Assembly (NCBI RefSeq): GCF_006538885.1
Contig: NZ_BJLY01000001.1
Span: 434,001-498,000, forward strand
DNA: 64,000 nucleotides
Source of the DNA: Gluconobacter roseus NBRC 3990
GTDB lineage: Bacteria > Pseudomonadota > Alphaproteobacteria > Acetobacterales > Acetobacteraceae
Direction of reading: 5' to 3'
In this document: positions 8,001 to 22,131 of the stretch, piece after piece
Layout of the letters: each line of letters starts with the position of its first letter
Numbering within the stretch: position 1 is the stretch's first letter
The notes under the pieces: generated by a model
The model's input: the letters and a program-made list of their open reading frames with translations, nothing else
What the model was told of the DNA's origin: nothing
Database searches by the model: none
Made by a program: the position numbers and the translations under genes

Positions 8001-8747
8001 TCAGGCCGTGGCAGCAGACATGACAGAAGCAATATTTTGGGGCGCGCTGCCCGTGATTGCGGCGGTGGCTGTGATCTCGTCTTCGCGCAGGATATAGCCA
8101 CGGCCCCATACGGTGGCGATCAGGTTACCTGCACCAACGTTCTGCAGTTTGCGGCGCAGCTTGCAGATAAAGACGTCAATGATCTTCATTTCCGGCTCGT
8201 CGATACCACCGTAAAGGTGGTTGAGGAACGCATCCTTGGTCAGGACCGAGCCCTTGCGGATGACCAGAAGCTCCAGGATGGCATATTCCTTGCCCGTCAG
8301 ATGTAGCGGGGCCCCATCGACCGTGACGTTCTTGCCGTTCAGGTCCAGTTCTAGATTTCCAACGCGCAGTTTTGGTTCGGCAAACCCGCGGGAGCGGCGC
8401 ATGACGGCCTGAAGACGGGCGACCAGTTCGCCGGCATCATAAGGTTTTGTCATGTAATCATCCGCACCCATCGAGAAGGCCCGGATCTTAGCCTGGGGAC
8501 GAAGCAGGGCGGAGAGGACGAGGATGGGCGTCGTGATGCGGGCCGTCCGGACACGCCGGATGACTTCATATCCTTCAAGATCGTTCAGCATCAGCTCAAG
8601 TACAACAACGTCATAGTCGTAATGACGAAGCATCTCGATCGCTTCTTCACCGGATGGGGTGTGGTCCACGGTGAAAGACGCAGCCCGCAGGATCTGGGAC
8701 AGGCTGGCGGCGGCGGACTGATCGCTATCGACAAGAAGAATTCGCAT
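8001..8747 (-). CDS. ctrA: CtrA-type response regulator with Glu at the phospho-site
   Basis: OmpR-type two-domain regulator, 248 residues: receiver 1-120, winged-helix DNA-binding domain about 130-232. The C-terminal half is CtrA-like (LTGKEYAILELL, LNHLYGGIDEPEMKIIDVFICKLRRKL, VWGRGYILR, read in pieces). The receiver is unusual: residue 51, the phospho-acceptor Asp in Caulobacter CtrA, is Glu (codon GAG, 8595-8597), and residue 8, a metal-binding Asp, is Ser (8724-8726). Ser79 and the TKP lysine remain. In Caulobacter the D51E change mimics phosphorylation, so this protein may be active without a kinase. It is divergent from fliI, in line with flagellar control by CtrA in early-branching alphaproteobacteria. 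Confidence 0.88.
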   Translation of the reverse strand: MRILLVDSDQSAAASLSQILRAASFTVDHTPSGEEAIEMLRHYDYDVVVLELMLNDLEGYEVIRRVRTARITTPILVLSALLRPQAKIRAFSMGADDYMTKPYDAGELVARLQAVMRRSRGFAEPKLRVGNLELDLNGKNVTVDGAPLHLTGKEYAILELLVIRKGSVLTKDAFLNHLYGGIDEPEMKIIDVFICKLRRKLQNVGAGNLIATVWGRGYILREDEITATAAITGSAPQNIASVMSAATA

Positions 8748-8860: not shown

Positions 8861-8875
8861 TTAGGGATGCCTTAA
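8861..8875 (+). promoter_or_regulatory. Candidate CtrA box upstream of fliI
   Basis: TTAG (8861-8864), seven bases, then TTAA (8872-8875) followed by CC. The CtrA consensus is TTAA-N7-TTAA, so there is one mismatch. It lies 62 bp before the fliI start in the ctrA-fliI divergent gap. A second CGTTAGG copy begins at 8846, 13 bp upstream of the first-arm copy. Functional role is inferred. Confidence 0.45.
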
Positions 8876-8937
8876 CCGGCAGGTTGTAGGTTCTGAAGAT
8901 CGGATCAAACCGCAGAAAACGGTCGAAAACTGGCGTC

Positions 8938-10296
8938 ATGAGCGATTACGACAGACTTCTCGAGGCATTATCCAATCTTACCTGCACTTGGGTGACGGGC
9001 AGTGTGAGGGATGTTGTGGGTCTGTGTGTAACCGTTATTGGACTCGAGGGATTCGTTACGATTGGTGATCGAGTTGCCATCAAGGCACGGGATGGCCGAT
9101 CAGTGCAATCCGAGGTTGTGGGTTTTCAGGGGGCGGTAGCGCGTCTCATGTCTTTCGGCTCTCTGGAAGGGATCGGTCCCGGATGTGAGGCCAAAGTCCC
9201 GCTGAATCGCCGTGAGGGAGGGTTGAGCGTCAGTGAAGACTGGCTGGGGCGGGTTGTCGATCCGCTGGGACAGCCGATTGACGGGAAGGGACCGTTGCTG
9301 CCTTCGTTCAAACGGCAGCCAATCCAGTGCCCTCCACCAAATGCGGCCAGTCGTGCCCGTCTGGGTGAGCGTATTGATCTTGGGGTGCGCGCGCTGGATA
9401 CGTTCACGACCTGCCGTCGTGGTCAGAGGCTCGGACTTTTTGCCGGATCGGGCGTTGGAAAATCGACATTGCTGTCGATGCTGGCGAAAGGCGCGGAATG
9501 CGATGTTGCAGTAATTTCTCTGGTTGGGGAGCGCGGACGTGAGGTCCGCGAATTTATTGAGGATGATCTTGGGCCGGAAGGGCTGGCCCGTAGTGTTCTG
9601 GTGATTGCAACTTCGGACTCACCGCCTCTGATGCGTCGTGAAGCTGCATTGTCCGCTATGGCGATTGCTGAATATTTTCGGGACAGGGGCAAATCGGTCC
9701 TGCTGTTGATGGACAGCGTAACCCGCTTTTGCATGGCGCTGCGTGAAATCGGTCTGTCTGCGGGAGAGCCGCCCGCAACGCGTGGTTATCCTCCCTCGGT
9801 CTTTGCCGAGCTGCCACGACTTCTGGAACGAGCGGGCCCCGGCTATCCGGATCAGGGAATGATCACGGCGCTTTTTACGGTTCTTGTGGAAGGTGACGAT
9901 CAGAACGAACCGGTTGCGGATGCCGTGCGAGGCATTCTGGATGGCCATATCATTCTGGACCGCAAGATCGGTGAACAGGGACGCTATCCTGCCATTGATG
10001 TGTTGCGATCCCTGTCTCGTGCCGTGCCACGTTGTAACTCAGCAGAGGAAAATGACCTGACGCGGCGTGCACGGGCCGCCATGGCGACCTATCAGCGGAT
10101 GGCCGACATGATCCGGCTCGGAGCTTACAAGGCAGGTACGGATCATGAGGTGGATGAAGCCATCGCGCTGATGCCACGACTGAATGCGTTCCTGTCTCAG
10201 GGGCGGGACGAACGCTCCACGCGCGCAGAGGCTTTTGGGCAGCTGGCGCAGATCATGCAGACTCTTCCACAGAACGCTCCCGTGAAGGCAGCGTGA
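8938..10296 (+). CDS. fliI: Flagellar export ATPase FliI
   Basis: Hexameric F1-beta-like ATPase that unfolds and feeds substrates to the flagellar type III export gate. It has 452 residues. Walker A AGSGVGKST is at 169-177 and the Walker B-like strand LLLMDSVTRF near 255-264. ERGREVREFIEDDLG is typical of FliI/SctN ATPases. The pairing with fliJ 13 bp downstream favours the flagellar member over an injectisome ATPase. No other flagellar structural genes are in the window. Confidence 0.95.
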   Translation: MSDYDRLLEALSNLTCTWVTGSVRDVVGLCVTVIGLEGFVTIGDRVAIKARDGRSVQSEVVGFQGAVARLMSFGSLEGIGPGCEAKVPLNRREGGLSVSEDWLGRVVDPLGQPIDGKGPLLPSFKRQPIQCPPPNAASRARLGERIDLGVRALDTFTTCRRGQRLGLFAGSGVGKSTLLSMLAKGAECDVAVISLVGERGREVREFIEDDLGPEGLARSVLVIATSDSPPLMRREAALSAMAIAEYFRDRGKSVLLLMDSVTRFCMALREIGLSAGEPPATRGYPPSVFAELPRLLERAGPGYPDQGMITALFTVLVEGDDQNEPVADAVRGILDGHIILDRKIGEQGRYPAIDVLRSLSRAVPRCNSAEENDLTRRARAAMATYQRMADMIRLGAYKAGTDHEVDEAIALMPRLNAFLSQGRDERSTRAEAFGQLAQIMQTLPQNAPVKAA

Positions 10297-10309: not shown

Positions 10310-10735
10310 ATGGAACGCTCACCTCTCGAAACACTGATCACCCTGCGGGAGCAGGAACTTAATGTTGTAGAACAAAGATTTGCGGAAGCCGTGGCGCGTG
10401 AAGCTGCTGCGGAGGAGAAACTGGCTGCTGCTCAGGACGAGATCCTGAACGAGCAGCGGGTCGCTTCCGGCCCCACGGCGGGAGACGGTGCTGTTGAAGC
10501 ATTCAGCCGCTGGCTTCCACTGGGGCGAAAGGCGGTGGCCGAGGCTCAGGCGCGCTGTCGTGAGGCTGCGCTGGACCGCGAAACCGTGCGCTCGGCACTG
10601 ATTGCGGCCAGAGCAGCCATGGAAGCCGTTAAGACATTGCGCGACGAGCAGAAGGAAGAGGAACGACAGGCCGATCTCAGGAAAGAACAGAATGTTCTGG
10701 ATGAACTCGCCGTCCGTCAGTTCGGCCGGGCTTAA
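10310..10735 (+). CDS. fliJ: Flagellar export chaperone FliJ
   Basis: Coiled-coil protein that inserts in the FliI ring like the gamma subunit of F1 and escorts export chaperones. It has 141 residues, nearly all charged Ala/Glu/Arg/Lys heptads, which fits FliJ size and shape. FliJ is poorly conserved in sequence, so the call rests on length, coiled-coil character and the fliI-fliJ order. Its stop overlaps by four bases the end of the convergent gene on the other strand. Confidence 0.8.
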   Translation: MERSPLETLITLREQELNVVEQRFAEAVAREAAAEEKLAAAQDEILNEQRVASGPTAGDGAVEAFSRWLPLGRKAVAEAQARCREAALDRETVRSALIAARAAMEAVKTLRDEQKEEERQADLRKEQNVLDELAVRQFGRA

Positions 10736-11148
10736 GGAGATTTATGTCCGCGTAAGGCTGCTTCAATCTGAGCAGCCGTGCCGATCAGGGCGCAGGCGAC
10801 AGGATGCGTATTGTCGCGGACGAAGGCCAGAACGAGATCCGGATCACTGGGAAAGAGATCGCTAGGCATCGTGAGGACCGGTGTCATTTCGCCATTGCGT
10901 AATGCGGCTTCGGCAGCGTGTGACAGGATACGTGCGGCGGCTTTCTCAAGTGCTGGGAGAAGCACCGTATGAGGCGCATCGTGATGCTCGGCATGTGTCG
11001 CGCTCAGTTCATCCCAACCGGCCCGGGTCACGAAGACCGGTATGCCATCCGGCGGCGTTTCGCGTTCGGCGCGCAGCAGGGCGCCTGACTGTGCCATGCC
11101 AAGAATATCCAGGGCAGGCAGGATTGCAAGGTCGAGTTTGATGGACAT
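10732..11148 (-). CDS. Protein of unknown function beside fliJ
   Basis: 138 residues, no family recognised. It reads as a soluble alpha/beta protein with no signal peptide or membrane segment. Visible stretches are an N-terminal hydrophobic helix (IKLDLAILPALDILG), an Ala-rich helix near 70-90, and a C-terminal helix ending in a basic tail. It is convergent with fliJ, overlapping it by four bases, so the reading frame is tightly packed against a real gene. A role in motility is only a guess from position. Confidence 0.6.
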   Translation of the reverse strand: MSIKLDLAILPALDILGMAQSGALLRAERETPPDGIPVFVTRAGWDELSATHAEHHDAPHTVLLPALEKAAARILSHAAEAALRNGEMTPVLTMPSDLFPSDPDLVLAFVRDNTHPVACALIGTAAQIEAALRGHKSP

Positions 11149-19257: not shown

Positions 19258-22131
19258 GTGGCAGACACAATCTCCAATACCGGTCTGAACGAAGTCGGCA
19301 GCGTGCTGCGCGACCTTGAGAATTACGGTCAGTCTCCCTGGCTGGACTTCATCCAGCGCAGCTTCACGGAGAATGGCAGTCTCCGTAAACTGGTTGATGA
19401 TGACGGCCTGCGTGGTGTGACATCCAACCCGGCCATCTTCGAGAAGGCCATCGGTCACGGTACGGAATACGATCCGCAGATCCGCAAGCTGCTCGAAGGC
19501 GAGGGGCTGTCTCCGGGCGAACTGTACGAGCATCTGGCAATCGACGACATCCGTGCGGCCTGTGCAGTGCTCGATCCGGTATTTGAAAAGACCAAGGGGC
19601 TGGACGGCTATGTCAGCCTCGAAGTCTCCCCCTATCTGGCCTTTGACGCCCACGGGACCATCACCGAAGCGCGCCGCCTGTGGAAAGCAGTCGGACGTCA
19701 CAACCTGATGATCAAGATCCCGGGGACGGCAGAGGGTACGGGTGCGATCCGCGAAGCCATCGCGGACGGCATCAATGTCAATGTGACGCTGCTGTTCTCG
19801 CTGGACGCATACAAGGCGGTTCTGGAAGCCTATATTTCCGGTCTCGAGGCCCGTGTGGCCCGTGGCGAAGAAATCTCGCGCATTTCCAGCGTAGCCTCGT
19901 TCTTTGTCAGCCGTATCGACGGCAAGATCGACGCGGAAATCGACCGTCGCGTTGCAGCGGGTGATCCGGAAGCCGAAGCCCTGAAGGCCATTCGCGGCAA
20001 GGTGGCGATCGCCAATGCCAAGATGGCCTATCAGTATTATCTGGAAGTCCGGAACAGTCCGCGCTGGAAGGCGCTGGCCGAGAAGGGCGCGAACCCGCAG
20101 CGTCTGCTGTGGGCCAGCACCGGTACCAAGGACAAGGCCTATTCCGACGTCCTGTATGTCGAGGAGCTGATTGGTCCTGAGACGGTCAACACCATCCCGC
20201 CCGCAACCTTCGACGCCTATCGCGATCACGGCAAGTCCCGTGCGAGCCTGACGGAAAATGTCGATCAGGCGCGGCATGTGATGGCCGAAGCCGAGCGGCT
20301 TGGACTGGGGCTGGACGCGATCACGGCCAAGCTGGTCAAGGATGGCTGTGCGGCGTTCAGCGTGTCCTTCGATACGCTGCTGACAGCCGTTGCCACCAAG
20401 CGCGAGGCCGTGCTGGGCGACCGTCTTCTGCGGGTTAGCGCGGATCTTCCGCCGGACCTGCGTGACGATGTGGCCGGAGCGGAAAAGGACTGGAGCCATA
20501 GTGGCGGTCTGCGTCGTATCTGGAAGAAGGACCCGTCCGTCTGGACGAATGGTCCGGAAGCCGGGTGGCTGAACTGGCTGACGGTTGTGCAGGATCGTCT
20601 GTGGCATATTGAGGAGCTGGAAGTTCTGGCCCGCGATGTCCGCAGTCGCGGCTTCAAGGATATCCTGCTTCTGGGCATGGGCGGTTCGAGCCTTGGTCCC
20701 GAGGTGCTCGCTGAGACTTTCGGACAGCGCGAAGGCTGGCCGAAGCTGCATGTGCTCGACAGCACGGATCCGCAGCAGGTCACGGCCTTCGAGAAGGCTA
20801 TCGATCCGAAGAACACGCTGTTCATCGTGGCCAGCAAGTCCGGCGGAACACTGGAGCCGAACATCCTGTTCGCGCATTTCTGGCAGGTGGCAGGGCAGGC
20901 TCTCGGCAAGAAGCCCGGTGACAGCTTCATCGCCATCACCGATCCGGGCTCGCACATGCAGAAAGTGGCCGAGGAAAACGGCTTCTGGCGTGTGTTTTAC
21001 GGCGATCCGAAGATTGGTGGCCGTTACTCGGTCCTGTCCAACTTCGGTCTTGTCCCGGCGGCTGCGAGCGGCATCGACGTCCGCAAGCTGCTGACGGTGA
21101 CGCGCCTGATGGTGGAATCCTGTGATGGAAGTGCTCCGCCGTCGTCCAATCCGGGTGCGGTTCTGGGTCTGATCCTGGGACATGCCGCGCATTGCTTCGG
21201 TCGTGACAAGGTCACGATCCTGGCGTCCGAAGGCATTGCCTCGCTGGGTGCCTGGCTGGAGCAGCTGATCGCCGAGAGCACGGGCAAAAAGGGCGTTGGC
21301 CTTATTCCCATCGACGAGGAAGAACTCGGCACGCCGGACGTGTACGGCACCGATCGCATCTTCGTGGATCTGCTGCTGGGTGATGACGTTCCCGACAGTC
21401 GCCTTGGTGCCCTTCGTGCCGCAGGTGCACCGGTGGTCACCATCCGTCTGGCAGACAAGGCCCAGATCGGACAGGCTTTCTTCCTGTTCGAATTCGCTAC
21501 GGCTGTGGCAGGCGCAGTTCTGGGGATCGACCCGTTCGATCAGCCGGACGTGGAGTTCAGCAAGCTCGAGACGCGCAAGCTGACTTCGGCCTATGCCGAA
21601 ACGGGTTCTCTGCCGGAGGAAACGCCGTTCGCAAAGGATGGTCCGCTGTCCTTCTATGCAGATCCGAAGAACACCGAAGTCTTTGAAAACAAGGGCGATG
21701 CCGTCTCCATCCTCAAGGCGCTCTTCGATCGCGTGAAGGCTGGTGACTATGTCGGGCTGCTCGCCTATATCAGGCGCGACCAGCAGACACGGGACTGGGC
21801 ACAGTCCGTTCGCATGGAACTTCGGGACGCACTGAAGGTGGCGACAGCTGCCGAATTCGGGCCCCGGTTCCTGCACTCGACAGGCCAGGCCTACAAGGGC
21901 GGCCCCGACAGTGGCGTGTTCCTGCAGGTCACGGCAACGGATGCGGCGGATGTGCCGGTTCCGGGCCATGGCTTCAGCTTCAGTGTCGTGAAAGCGGCAC
22001 AGGCGCGAGGCGATTTCGAGGTGCTCGCGGCCCGTGGTCGTCGTGCCCTCCGCGTTCATATCGATGGACCGCTGGAGGACGGGCTGAAGGCTCTGGAAAC
22101 GGCGATCCATAAAGCACTGGCAGGAGCATAA
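19258..22131 (+). CDS. tal-pgi: Fused transaldolase / glucose-6-phosphate isomerase
   Basis: One 957-residue protein. Residues 1 to about 370 are transaldolase: DGLRGVTSNPAIFEKAI, then LMIKIPGT with the Schiff-base Lys153. From about 380 the protein is a phosphoglucose isomerase, with the sugar-phosphate site GMGGSSLGPEVL and VASKSGGTLEPN and the C-terminal HSTGQAYKGGPDSG. It converts sedoheptulose-7-P plus glyceraldehyde-3-P to erythrose-4-P and fructose-6-P, and then fructose-6-P to glucose-6-P. The fusion is known from acetic acid bacteria. The start is GTG, after the RBS GGGAGAG. No frameshift. Confidence 0.96.
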   Translation: MADTISNTGLNEVGSVLRDLENYGQSPWLDFIQRSFTENGSLRKLVDDDGLRGVTSNPAIFEKAIGHGTEYDPQIRKLLEGEGLSPGELYEHLAIDDIRAACAVLDPVFEKTKGLDGYVSLEVSPYLAFDAHGTITEARRLWKAVGRHNLMIKIPGTAEGTGAIREAIADGINVNVTLLFSLDAYKAVLEAYISGLEARVARGEEISRISSVASFFVSRIDGKIDAEIDRRVAAGDPEAEALKAIRGKVAIANAKMAYQYYLEVRNSPRWKALAEKGANPQRLLWASTGTKDKAYSDVLYVEELIGPETVNTIPPATFDAYRDHGKSRASLTENVDQARHVMAEAERLGLGLDAITAKLVKDGCAAFSVSFDTLLTAVATKREAVLGDRLLRVSADLPPDLRDDVAGAEKDWSHSGGLRRIWKKDPSVWTNGPEAGWLNWLTVVQDRLWHIEELEVLARDVRSRGFKDILLLGMGGSSLGPEVLAETFGQREGWPKLHVLDSTDPQQVTAFEKAIDPKNTLFIVASKSGGTLEPNILFAHFWQVAGQALGKKPGDSFIAITDPGSHMQKVAEENGFWRVFYGDPKIGGRYSVLSNFGLVPAAASGIDVRKLLTVTRLMVESCDGSAPPSSNPGAVLGLILGHAAHCFGRDKVTILASEGIASLGAWLEQLIAESTGKKGVGLIPIDEEELGTPDVYGTDRIFVDLLLGDDVPDSRLGALRAAGAPVVTIRLADKAQIGQAFFLFEFATAVAGAVLGIDPFDQPDVEFSKLETRKLTSAYAETGSLPEETPFAKDGPLSFYADPKNTEVFENKGDAVSILKALFDRVKAGDYVGLLAYIRRDQQTRDWAQSVRMELRDALKVATAAEFGPRFLHSTGQAYKGGPDSGVFLQVTATDAADVPVPGHGFSFSVVKAAQARGDFEVLAARGRRALRVHIDGPLEDGLKALETAIHKALAGA

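Follow-up and report, generated by a model that had tools for sequence, protein, structure and literature searches.

Glu51 in place of the phospho-acceptor aspartate of CtrA in Gluconobacter roseus and other acetic acid bacteria: a putative phosphorylation-independent regulator

The ctrA-fliI locus and identity of the regulator

The DNA analysed here (the window) is a stretch of 64,000 nucleotides from the acetic acid bacterium Gluconobacter roseus NBRC 3990 (RefSeq assembly GCF_006538885.1, contig NZ_BJLY01000001.1, positions 434,001 to 498,000 of the forward strand). It carries a ctrA orthologue and, divergent from it, the flagellar genes fliI and fliJ; the stretch separating ctrA from fliI holds a CtrA-box-like site (Table 1). 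A preliminary description of this DNA had proposed that both the phospho-acceptor residue and a metal-pocket residue of the regulator are replaced, and this was borne out when the codons GAG and AGC were read on the minus strand from the ATG at 8747, which gives the motif D7-S8-D9. Because Asp7 and Asp9 are kept, the metal site is predicted to be altered rather than empty.

Table 1. Features of the ctrA-fliI locus, in window coordinates
Feature	Position	Strand	Support or remark
ctrA orthologue, 248 aa, OmpR/PhoB-type response regulator	8001..8747	-	Pfam and NCBIfam
ctrA domains: receiver about residues 1-118, DNA-binding domain about residues 128-222			
Codon 51, GAG, Glu	8595..8597	-	Replaces phospho-acceptor Asp51
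Codon 8, AGC, Ser	8724..8726	-	Replaces metal-pocket Asp8; Asp7 and Asp9 kept
Codon 101, Lys	8445..8447	-	Conserved switch lysine retained
CtrA-box-like site TTAG-GGATGCC-TTAAC	8861..8876	+	TTAA-N7-TTAAC with 1 mismatch
fliI, flagellar export ATPase, divergent from ctrA	8938..10296	+	TIGR03498, 645.6 bits (cut-off 587.45)
fliJ	10310..10735	+	TIGR02473, 54.4 bits (cut-off 50.45); Pfam

The identity of the protein is supported by several lines of evidence. Pfam matches both the receiver (84.4 bits) and the Trans_reg_C domain (72.9 bits), and the closest NCBIfam model is that of CtrA (NF045991), which scores 326.9 bits against a curated cut-off of 350, the next model reaching 163.8 bits. In a tree of 182 rows the protein groups with the CtrA proteins of the family, and no other CtrA was found in this genome (2.88 Mb, 99.95% complete). 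A second CtrA with Asp51, which would have contradicted the preliminary description, was looked for in this genome and not found; the next three matches are 36-38% identical, and all three have Asp51. The AlphaFold model of the protein (mean pLDDT 84.6) places helix 1 at residues 10-22, helix 4 at 84-92, strand 5 at 97-100 and helix 5 at 105-119, and its receiver superposes with 1.0 Å over 118 residues on that of CtrA in 4qpj, a complex with a phosphotransferase that we take to be ChpT. Fold matches of the model further include the solved structure of CosR, as well as an atypical orphan regulator. With a receiver fold (Pfam; AlphaFold model) in which Asp51 and Asp8 are both replaced, the domain is classed as a pseudo-receiver.

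Distribution of residues 8 and 51

Alignment of residues 8 and 51 across related genomes, which the preliminary description had recommended, demonstrated that Glu51 is clade-wide and extends well beyond one genome. Each of the 26 genomes of the genus that were searched yielded one CtrA match at E<=1e-60, and all 26 proteins have Glu51, encoded by GAA in 23 and by GAG in 3, including this genome. Sequencing error as the source of Glu51 is ruled out by this constancy. Named matches reach up to 98% identity, and Glu51 was found in named loci of Gluconobacter, Neokomagataea, Tanticharoenia, Brytella, Acidomonas, Asaia and Acetobacter musti. Bombella is split, with Glu51 in two proteins (L069, L078) and Ala51 in two (L071, L083), and CtrA of Parasaccharibacter apium (L084) has Ala51; the residue 51 readings do not include Bombella dulcis (L080) or Asaia astilbis (L081). 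Both aspartates are kept in seven metagenome-assembled genomes (L061-L067), titled Acetobacteraceae, Rhodospirillales or, once, Acidobacteria. Intermediate combinations occur as well: Asp8 is retained together with Glu51 in Acetobacter musti and G034, and Asp51 is retained with Asp8 lost in four genomes of genus g56.

Outside the genus, residue 51 was read in 134 genomes (a 135th, G086, is a fragment), taken from 191 that matched at E<=1e-45; this sample consists mostly of one genome per genus, plus extra ChpT-negative genomes. The 182-row tree was built with columns 7-9 and 51 removed; its deep branches are weak, its long branches were flagged, and rows below 42% identity or 170 residues were excluded from it, among them G029, G113, G092 and G048. 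On this tree Glu51 is found chiefly among the acetic acid bacteria; it also occurs in g81 and in G171, which stand apart from the crown defined next, G171 on a flagged long branch. For the comparisons below, a crown of acetic acid bacteria was defined as 18 genera hand-chosen from the tree, to which 5 or 14 named rows were added; it excludes ChpT-less relatives with other residues (g2, g31, g41, g56, g71 and others). In ChpT-less relatives outside the crown, residue 51 is D, A, H, N, R, G or S, and several of those with other residues are less than 46% identical and perhaps not orthologues. Of three genomes of genus g60 (G084, G206, G158), two have Asp51 and the third has Glu51; all three have Pro8 and Asn9, and ChpT was not found in them. 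A CtrA-like protein from a metagenome-assembled genome of another alphaproteobacterium (L079, 46% identity) has Ser51 and Phe101 and is possibly an independent pseudo-receiver.

Detection of the relay partners ChpT and CckA

In the family, the Pfam model of ChpT (PF10090) matched 137 of 220 genomes, 132 of them above the cut-off, and it also matched Caulobacter among 14 control genomes. A family-specific profile was built from ten Acetobacteraceae ChpT proteins and run on 79 genomes; it scored at least 93 bits in 12/12 controls outside the profile and also in G027, which is inside it. ChpT was not detected in the G. roseus genome by either model. With the family profile, G052 (weak by Pfam) and G187 (no Pfam match) turned ChpT-positive, and both have Asp51; the other ChpT-less genomes gave nothing above 33 bits, and their weak matches sit in long open reading frames of roughly 480-1350 aa, several of which are histidine kinases. 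That ChpT is merely too divergent for Pfam was thus considered and rejected: the profile rescued these two genomes and not the acetic acid bacteria.

Residue 51 and ChpT were compared in the 140 ChpT-searched genomes, a sample enriched for ChpT-negative ones. All 68 tabulated ChpT-positive genomes have Asp8 and Asp51. Where ChpT was searched for and not detected (n=72), residue 51 is Glu in 42, another residue in 6 and Asp in 24; counting the 14 unsearched genomes of the genus as well (n=86), the figures become 56, 6 and 24. Since only 12 of the 26 genus genomes were searched for ChpT (and 5 of the 26 for CckA), 42 of 72 is the tested figure. ChpT was detected in none of the tested genomes whose residue 51 is altered. 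Asp8 is lost in 13 of the 24 Asp51 rows without detected ChpT, and 11 genomes, only part of them also searched with the profile, keep both aspartates without detected ChpT. One row dropped from the tree, G029, combines a strong ChpT match with Asp51 and Pro8, and is 40% identical and perhaps not an orthologue. Phylogenetic independence of these rows is weak: only 6 supported pairs could be drawn, with 0 contradictory, and the underpowered sign test, into which the 14 ChpT-unsearched genus genomes were entered as negative, is not significant.

The search for a CckA-type kinase rested on one query, a hybrid kinase of the ChpT-positive relative G089, reached via a solved CckA fragment (5idj, which we take to be Caulobacter CckA); the G089 kinase is presumed, from its receiver motif, to be the CckA orthologue. 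With this query, 11 of the 14 ChpT-positive controls (one of them the query's own genome) reached 300 bits or more and the remaining three 209-246 bits, within background; all 32 genomes without strong ChpT stayed at 233 bits or less. The best match in the G. roseus genome scored 184 bits with this single query. The genome carries 13 HisKA matches, 11 above the cut-off, with hybrid kinases among them. Two closely spaced histidine kinases are found on contig C4 at about 344500-349000 (L164, L161), one with an N-terminal receiver and the other with a receiver-kinase-receiver arrangement; acetic acid bacteria repeatedly carry kinases of about this size, several of which are weak matches to the ChpT profile. 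A 597-aa PAS-kinase-receiver hybrid lies in the 184000 region of contig C2 (L168), and its PAS domain is LOV-like by eye.

Partial loss of the relay in the Rhodospirillales has been reported before. Brilli et al. (2010) described relay members as missing to a varying degree in a Rhodospirillales cluster, with no chpT found and cckA present, and proposed a substitute phosphotransferase for CtrA-bearing genomes without ChpT (PMC2877005). According to Tomasch et al. (2021), only 27-36% of Rhodospirillales genomes carry chpT, cckA and divL (PMC8116508). The reported presence of cckA differs from our failure to detect a CckA-type kinase with one query, and paralogues may be the cause. The statement of the preliminary description that this CtrA is not controlled by CckA and ChpT is supported by these data, as ChpT was undetected with two models, a CckA-type kinase was undetected with one query, and a second CtrA was not found. 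Loss of ChpT from part of the Rhodospirillales is therefore not new in itself; its tie to Glu51 was not met in the literature listed, and among the titles and abstract openings of the matches listed there, none concerned Glu51 of CtrA in acetic acid bacteria.

Evolution of the receiver domain

The receiver of the crown proteins has changed unevenly. Among 72 crown rows, some of them identical, site 51 is Glu in 64, Asp in 4 and Ala in 4, that is, acidic in 68, and it has undergone 4 changes against a receiver median of 7; in 61 distinct sequences the composition is E54, D4 and A3. Site 8 has undergone 12 changes (S45, N11, P6, T5, D2, G2, Y1). Position 79 is Ser or Thr in 72/72 rows, and position 101 is Lys in 56, Arg in 15 and Leu in 1. 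The dimer face is near-invariant, with D96, D97 and R111 in all 72 rows and E107 in 71. Because Ala51 occurs in 4 of the 72 rows, a negative charge at this site is not strictly required.

The ratio of receiver to DNA-binding-domain rate is 1.92 in the crown (61 sequences) versus 1.16 in ChpT-positive genomes (65 sequences). The extra crown rate falls in helix 1 and the active-site loops and not in the alpha4-beta5-alpha5 face (permutation p 0.0012), a contrast that persists without sites 7-9 and 51 (p 0.0057); helices 3 and 5 alone are also somewhat faster in the crown. These structural faces were assigned before the model was available, on what we assume from general knowledge of the fold, and the AlphaFold elements agree with them. 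Judged by these rates, the phosphotransfer face, on which the relay is expected to dock, is relaxed in crown CtrA.

Link to fliI and candidate CtrA box

In addition to the changes in the protein, the DNA between ctrA and fliI carries a candidate target. The box-like site of Table 1 lies upstream of both genes, at 61 bp from fliI and 113 bp from ctrA. The window holds 3 box-like matches versus 1.17 expected, two of them being the two strands of this one site, and since 13 of 100 shuffles also reach 3, the window count alone is not significant. The gene fliI adjoins ctrA in 26/26 genus genomes and in 20 of the 53 others with enough flank, and the pattern TT(A/C)(A/G)-N7-TTA between ctrA and fliI is kept in 26/26 genus genomes, the spacing being constant and the spacer sequence variable (alignment, by eye). 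Within 350 bp upstream of ctrA, 23/26 genus genomes have a box with at most one mismatch, and 21 of these 23 place it at -127 to -130. Such a box is absent from the same stretch in most of the ChpT-positive relatives with Asp51 that were examined. The suggestion of the preliminary description that ctrA is linked to the facing fliI gene is strengthened by this conserved candidate box.

One exact CtrA box stands 41 bp before an open reading frame that is followed by fliP. Genome-wide, exact boxes number 7 versus 7 in a backwards control, and no CtrA regulon is claimed, since exact boxes are no commoner than in that control. An exact CtrA-box-like site on both strands was noted at about positions 1501-1516 of L314 (C1:597038), with a GGDEF gene on one side and a dapD-like gene on the other. 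The curated FliI cut-off was met in only 47/220 genomes, and FliI was used only loosely as a marker of flagella because weak matches reach the level of ATP synthase. Some crown genomes (for example G033, G094 and G125) have no FliI-level match at all, and CtrA there must therefore do another job.

CtrA without its phosphate switch

Glu51 is the same substitution as the Caulobacter laboratory allele D51E. The preliminary description had named D51E as a Caulobacter phospho-mimic, and this is confirmed in print: Caulobacter papers term D51E phosphomimetic, or active in a stabilised form, and a 'stable and active' ctrA allele is described there as D51E plus a stabilised end. A D51E allele has replaced the chromosomal ctrA of Caulobacter, with ctrA mutants reported to grow more slowly than the wild type in soft agar; in a 2025 paper D51E was made by C153G, a change that would turn a wild-type GAC codon into GAG. 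In Rhodobacter capsulatus, CtrA D51E was reported to bind the ctrA promoter in vitro with low affinity, and the wild type not at all (PMC6363796). In contrast to the laboratory allele, Glu51 of Gluconobacter is natural, clade-wide and mostly found with Asp8 lost and the relay not found.

The regulator shares with CtrA of Caulobacter and other alphaproteobacteria its family, the receiver fold, the conserved DNA-binding domain and a box-like site at a flagellar promoter region, and it differs from the Caulobacter type in having Glu51 and Ser8, in a genome where ChpT and a CckA-type kinase were not found with the models used and in a genus without the C-terminal Ala-Ala. Pseudo-receivers are known from other atypical OmpR/PhoB regulators such as ChxR, HP1043 and CosR, and ChxR reportedly forms dimers and binds DNA in the absence of phosphate. 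Those regulators belong to other lineages, unlike the present case, in which the orthologue of a well-studied phospho-switch has changed and phosphorylatable orthologues exist for comparison. A review of pseudo-receivers notes that receivers without the Asp most often carry Glu in its place, and that an activating role of this Glu has been disproved in some cases (PMC12632262).

Taken together, these data suggest that the protein is the genuine CtrA of this acetic acid bacterium and now acts as a phosphorylation-independent pseudo-receiver regulator, a reading to which we assign a probability of roughly 0.7. The Glu51 trait is real, clade-wide and, from the genomes compared, tied to loss of the relay. 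Since the partners are undetected and the acceptor is replaced by a residue resembling its switched-on form, CtrA probably works without phosphate, and its phosphorylation-independent function is well supported by the comparative evidence. Loss of the relay would date to the common ancestor of the acetic acid bacteria or close to it, and the change of Asp51 to Glu and the decay of the metal site would have followed. Glu51, together with the conserved Ser79 and Lys101, would favour the active form of the receiver, so that CtrA would dimerise and bind its boxes without phosphate, and its output would then be set by the amount made and by other factors, not by CckA and ChpT. The most probable mechanism would be the 'permanently on' state put forward in the preliminary description, with Glu51 probably holding CtrA active. 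The odds seem about even for a broader scenario, in which acetic acid bacteria dismantled CckA-ChpT and fixed the D51E mimic in nature, CtrA being constitutively active and controlled by its level throughout the clade and serving other functions where FliI is undetectable.

A tentative alternative, which we regard as possible but the less probable course, is plain decay of the receiver once the relay had gone; Glu51 would then be near-neutral and tolerated, and activity would come from an intrinsic dimer. The Ala51 rows of the crown, the six residues A, H, N, G, R and S in ChpT-less relatives outside it, the change of the switch Lys to Arg and the faster evolution of the crown receiver all speak for decay, and the review mentioned above cites pseudo-receivers whose activity is independent of the residue at the Asp position (PMC12632262). 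However, site 51 has changed less than the receiver median and far less than site 8 while staying acidic in nearly all crown rows, residue 51 is Asp or Glu in 58 of the 67 non-genus genomes without strong ChpT, Glu51 persists through synonymous codon change in the genus, and it is also present in g81 and G171 (the latter the flagged long branch), apart from the crown.

Control may also have moved to protein stability. In Caulobacter, ClpXP needs the C-terminal Ala-Ala of CtrA. A reading in which the protein is always active in form and removed by regulated proteolysis, which we consider unlikely, would draw on ClpXP-dependent destruction, the second control of CtrA in Caulobacter (PMC2877005). 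Ala-Ala was found in 0/26 genus proteins and 2/12 other Glu51 proteins, versus 15 of the 28 ChpT-positive Asp51 proteins examined (3/9 in ChpT-less Asp51 proteins), and RcdA-CpdR was reported missing in the Rhodospirillales cluster (PMC2877005). The preliminary description had offered proteolysis as one means of control; that part of it is weakened, and Caulobacter-type proteolysis is disfavoured in the genus by the absence of Ala-Ala from all 26 members. Still less probable is phosphorylation of CtrA, at Glu51 or elsewhere, by another phosphotransfer protein or kinase in place of ChpT. The HisKA proteins of the genome, hybrid kinases included, offer candidates, and replacement of the phosphotransferase was proposed by Brilli et al. 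(2010; PMC2877005), but the acceptor Asp and Asp8 are gone, the expected docking surface is relaxed, and no kinase was seen by eye next to ctrA in the part of the window whose open reading frames were listed. Moreover, loss of ChpT accompanies a change in CtrA itself, and a hidden substitute is therefore not required.

Implications

CtrA is the textbook case of a phosphate-controlled master regulator, and here a natural clade keeps CtrA with a mimic residue while the relay is not found. The phosphorylation-independent reading offers a possible answer to the puzzle posed by the 2010 survey, in which CtrA was present in genomes that lack ChpT. It also makes several questions testable: the role of CtrA without its switch, the conversion of a related species' CtrA to a relay-free form by a change of one codon, and the order in which a phosphorelay is disassembled, for which Acetobacter musti and G034 (Asp8 with Glu51) and genus g56 (Asp51 with Asp8 lost) supply intermediates. 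Acetic acid bacteria are, in addition, industrial organisms.

Other open reading frames in the window

A 138-aa open reading frame after fliJ (10732-11148, minus strand) has no Pfam or NCBIfam match. Further along, a 957-aa open reading frame (19258-22131, plus strand) resembles, by eye, a transaldolase fused to glucose-6-phosphate isomerase.
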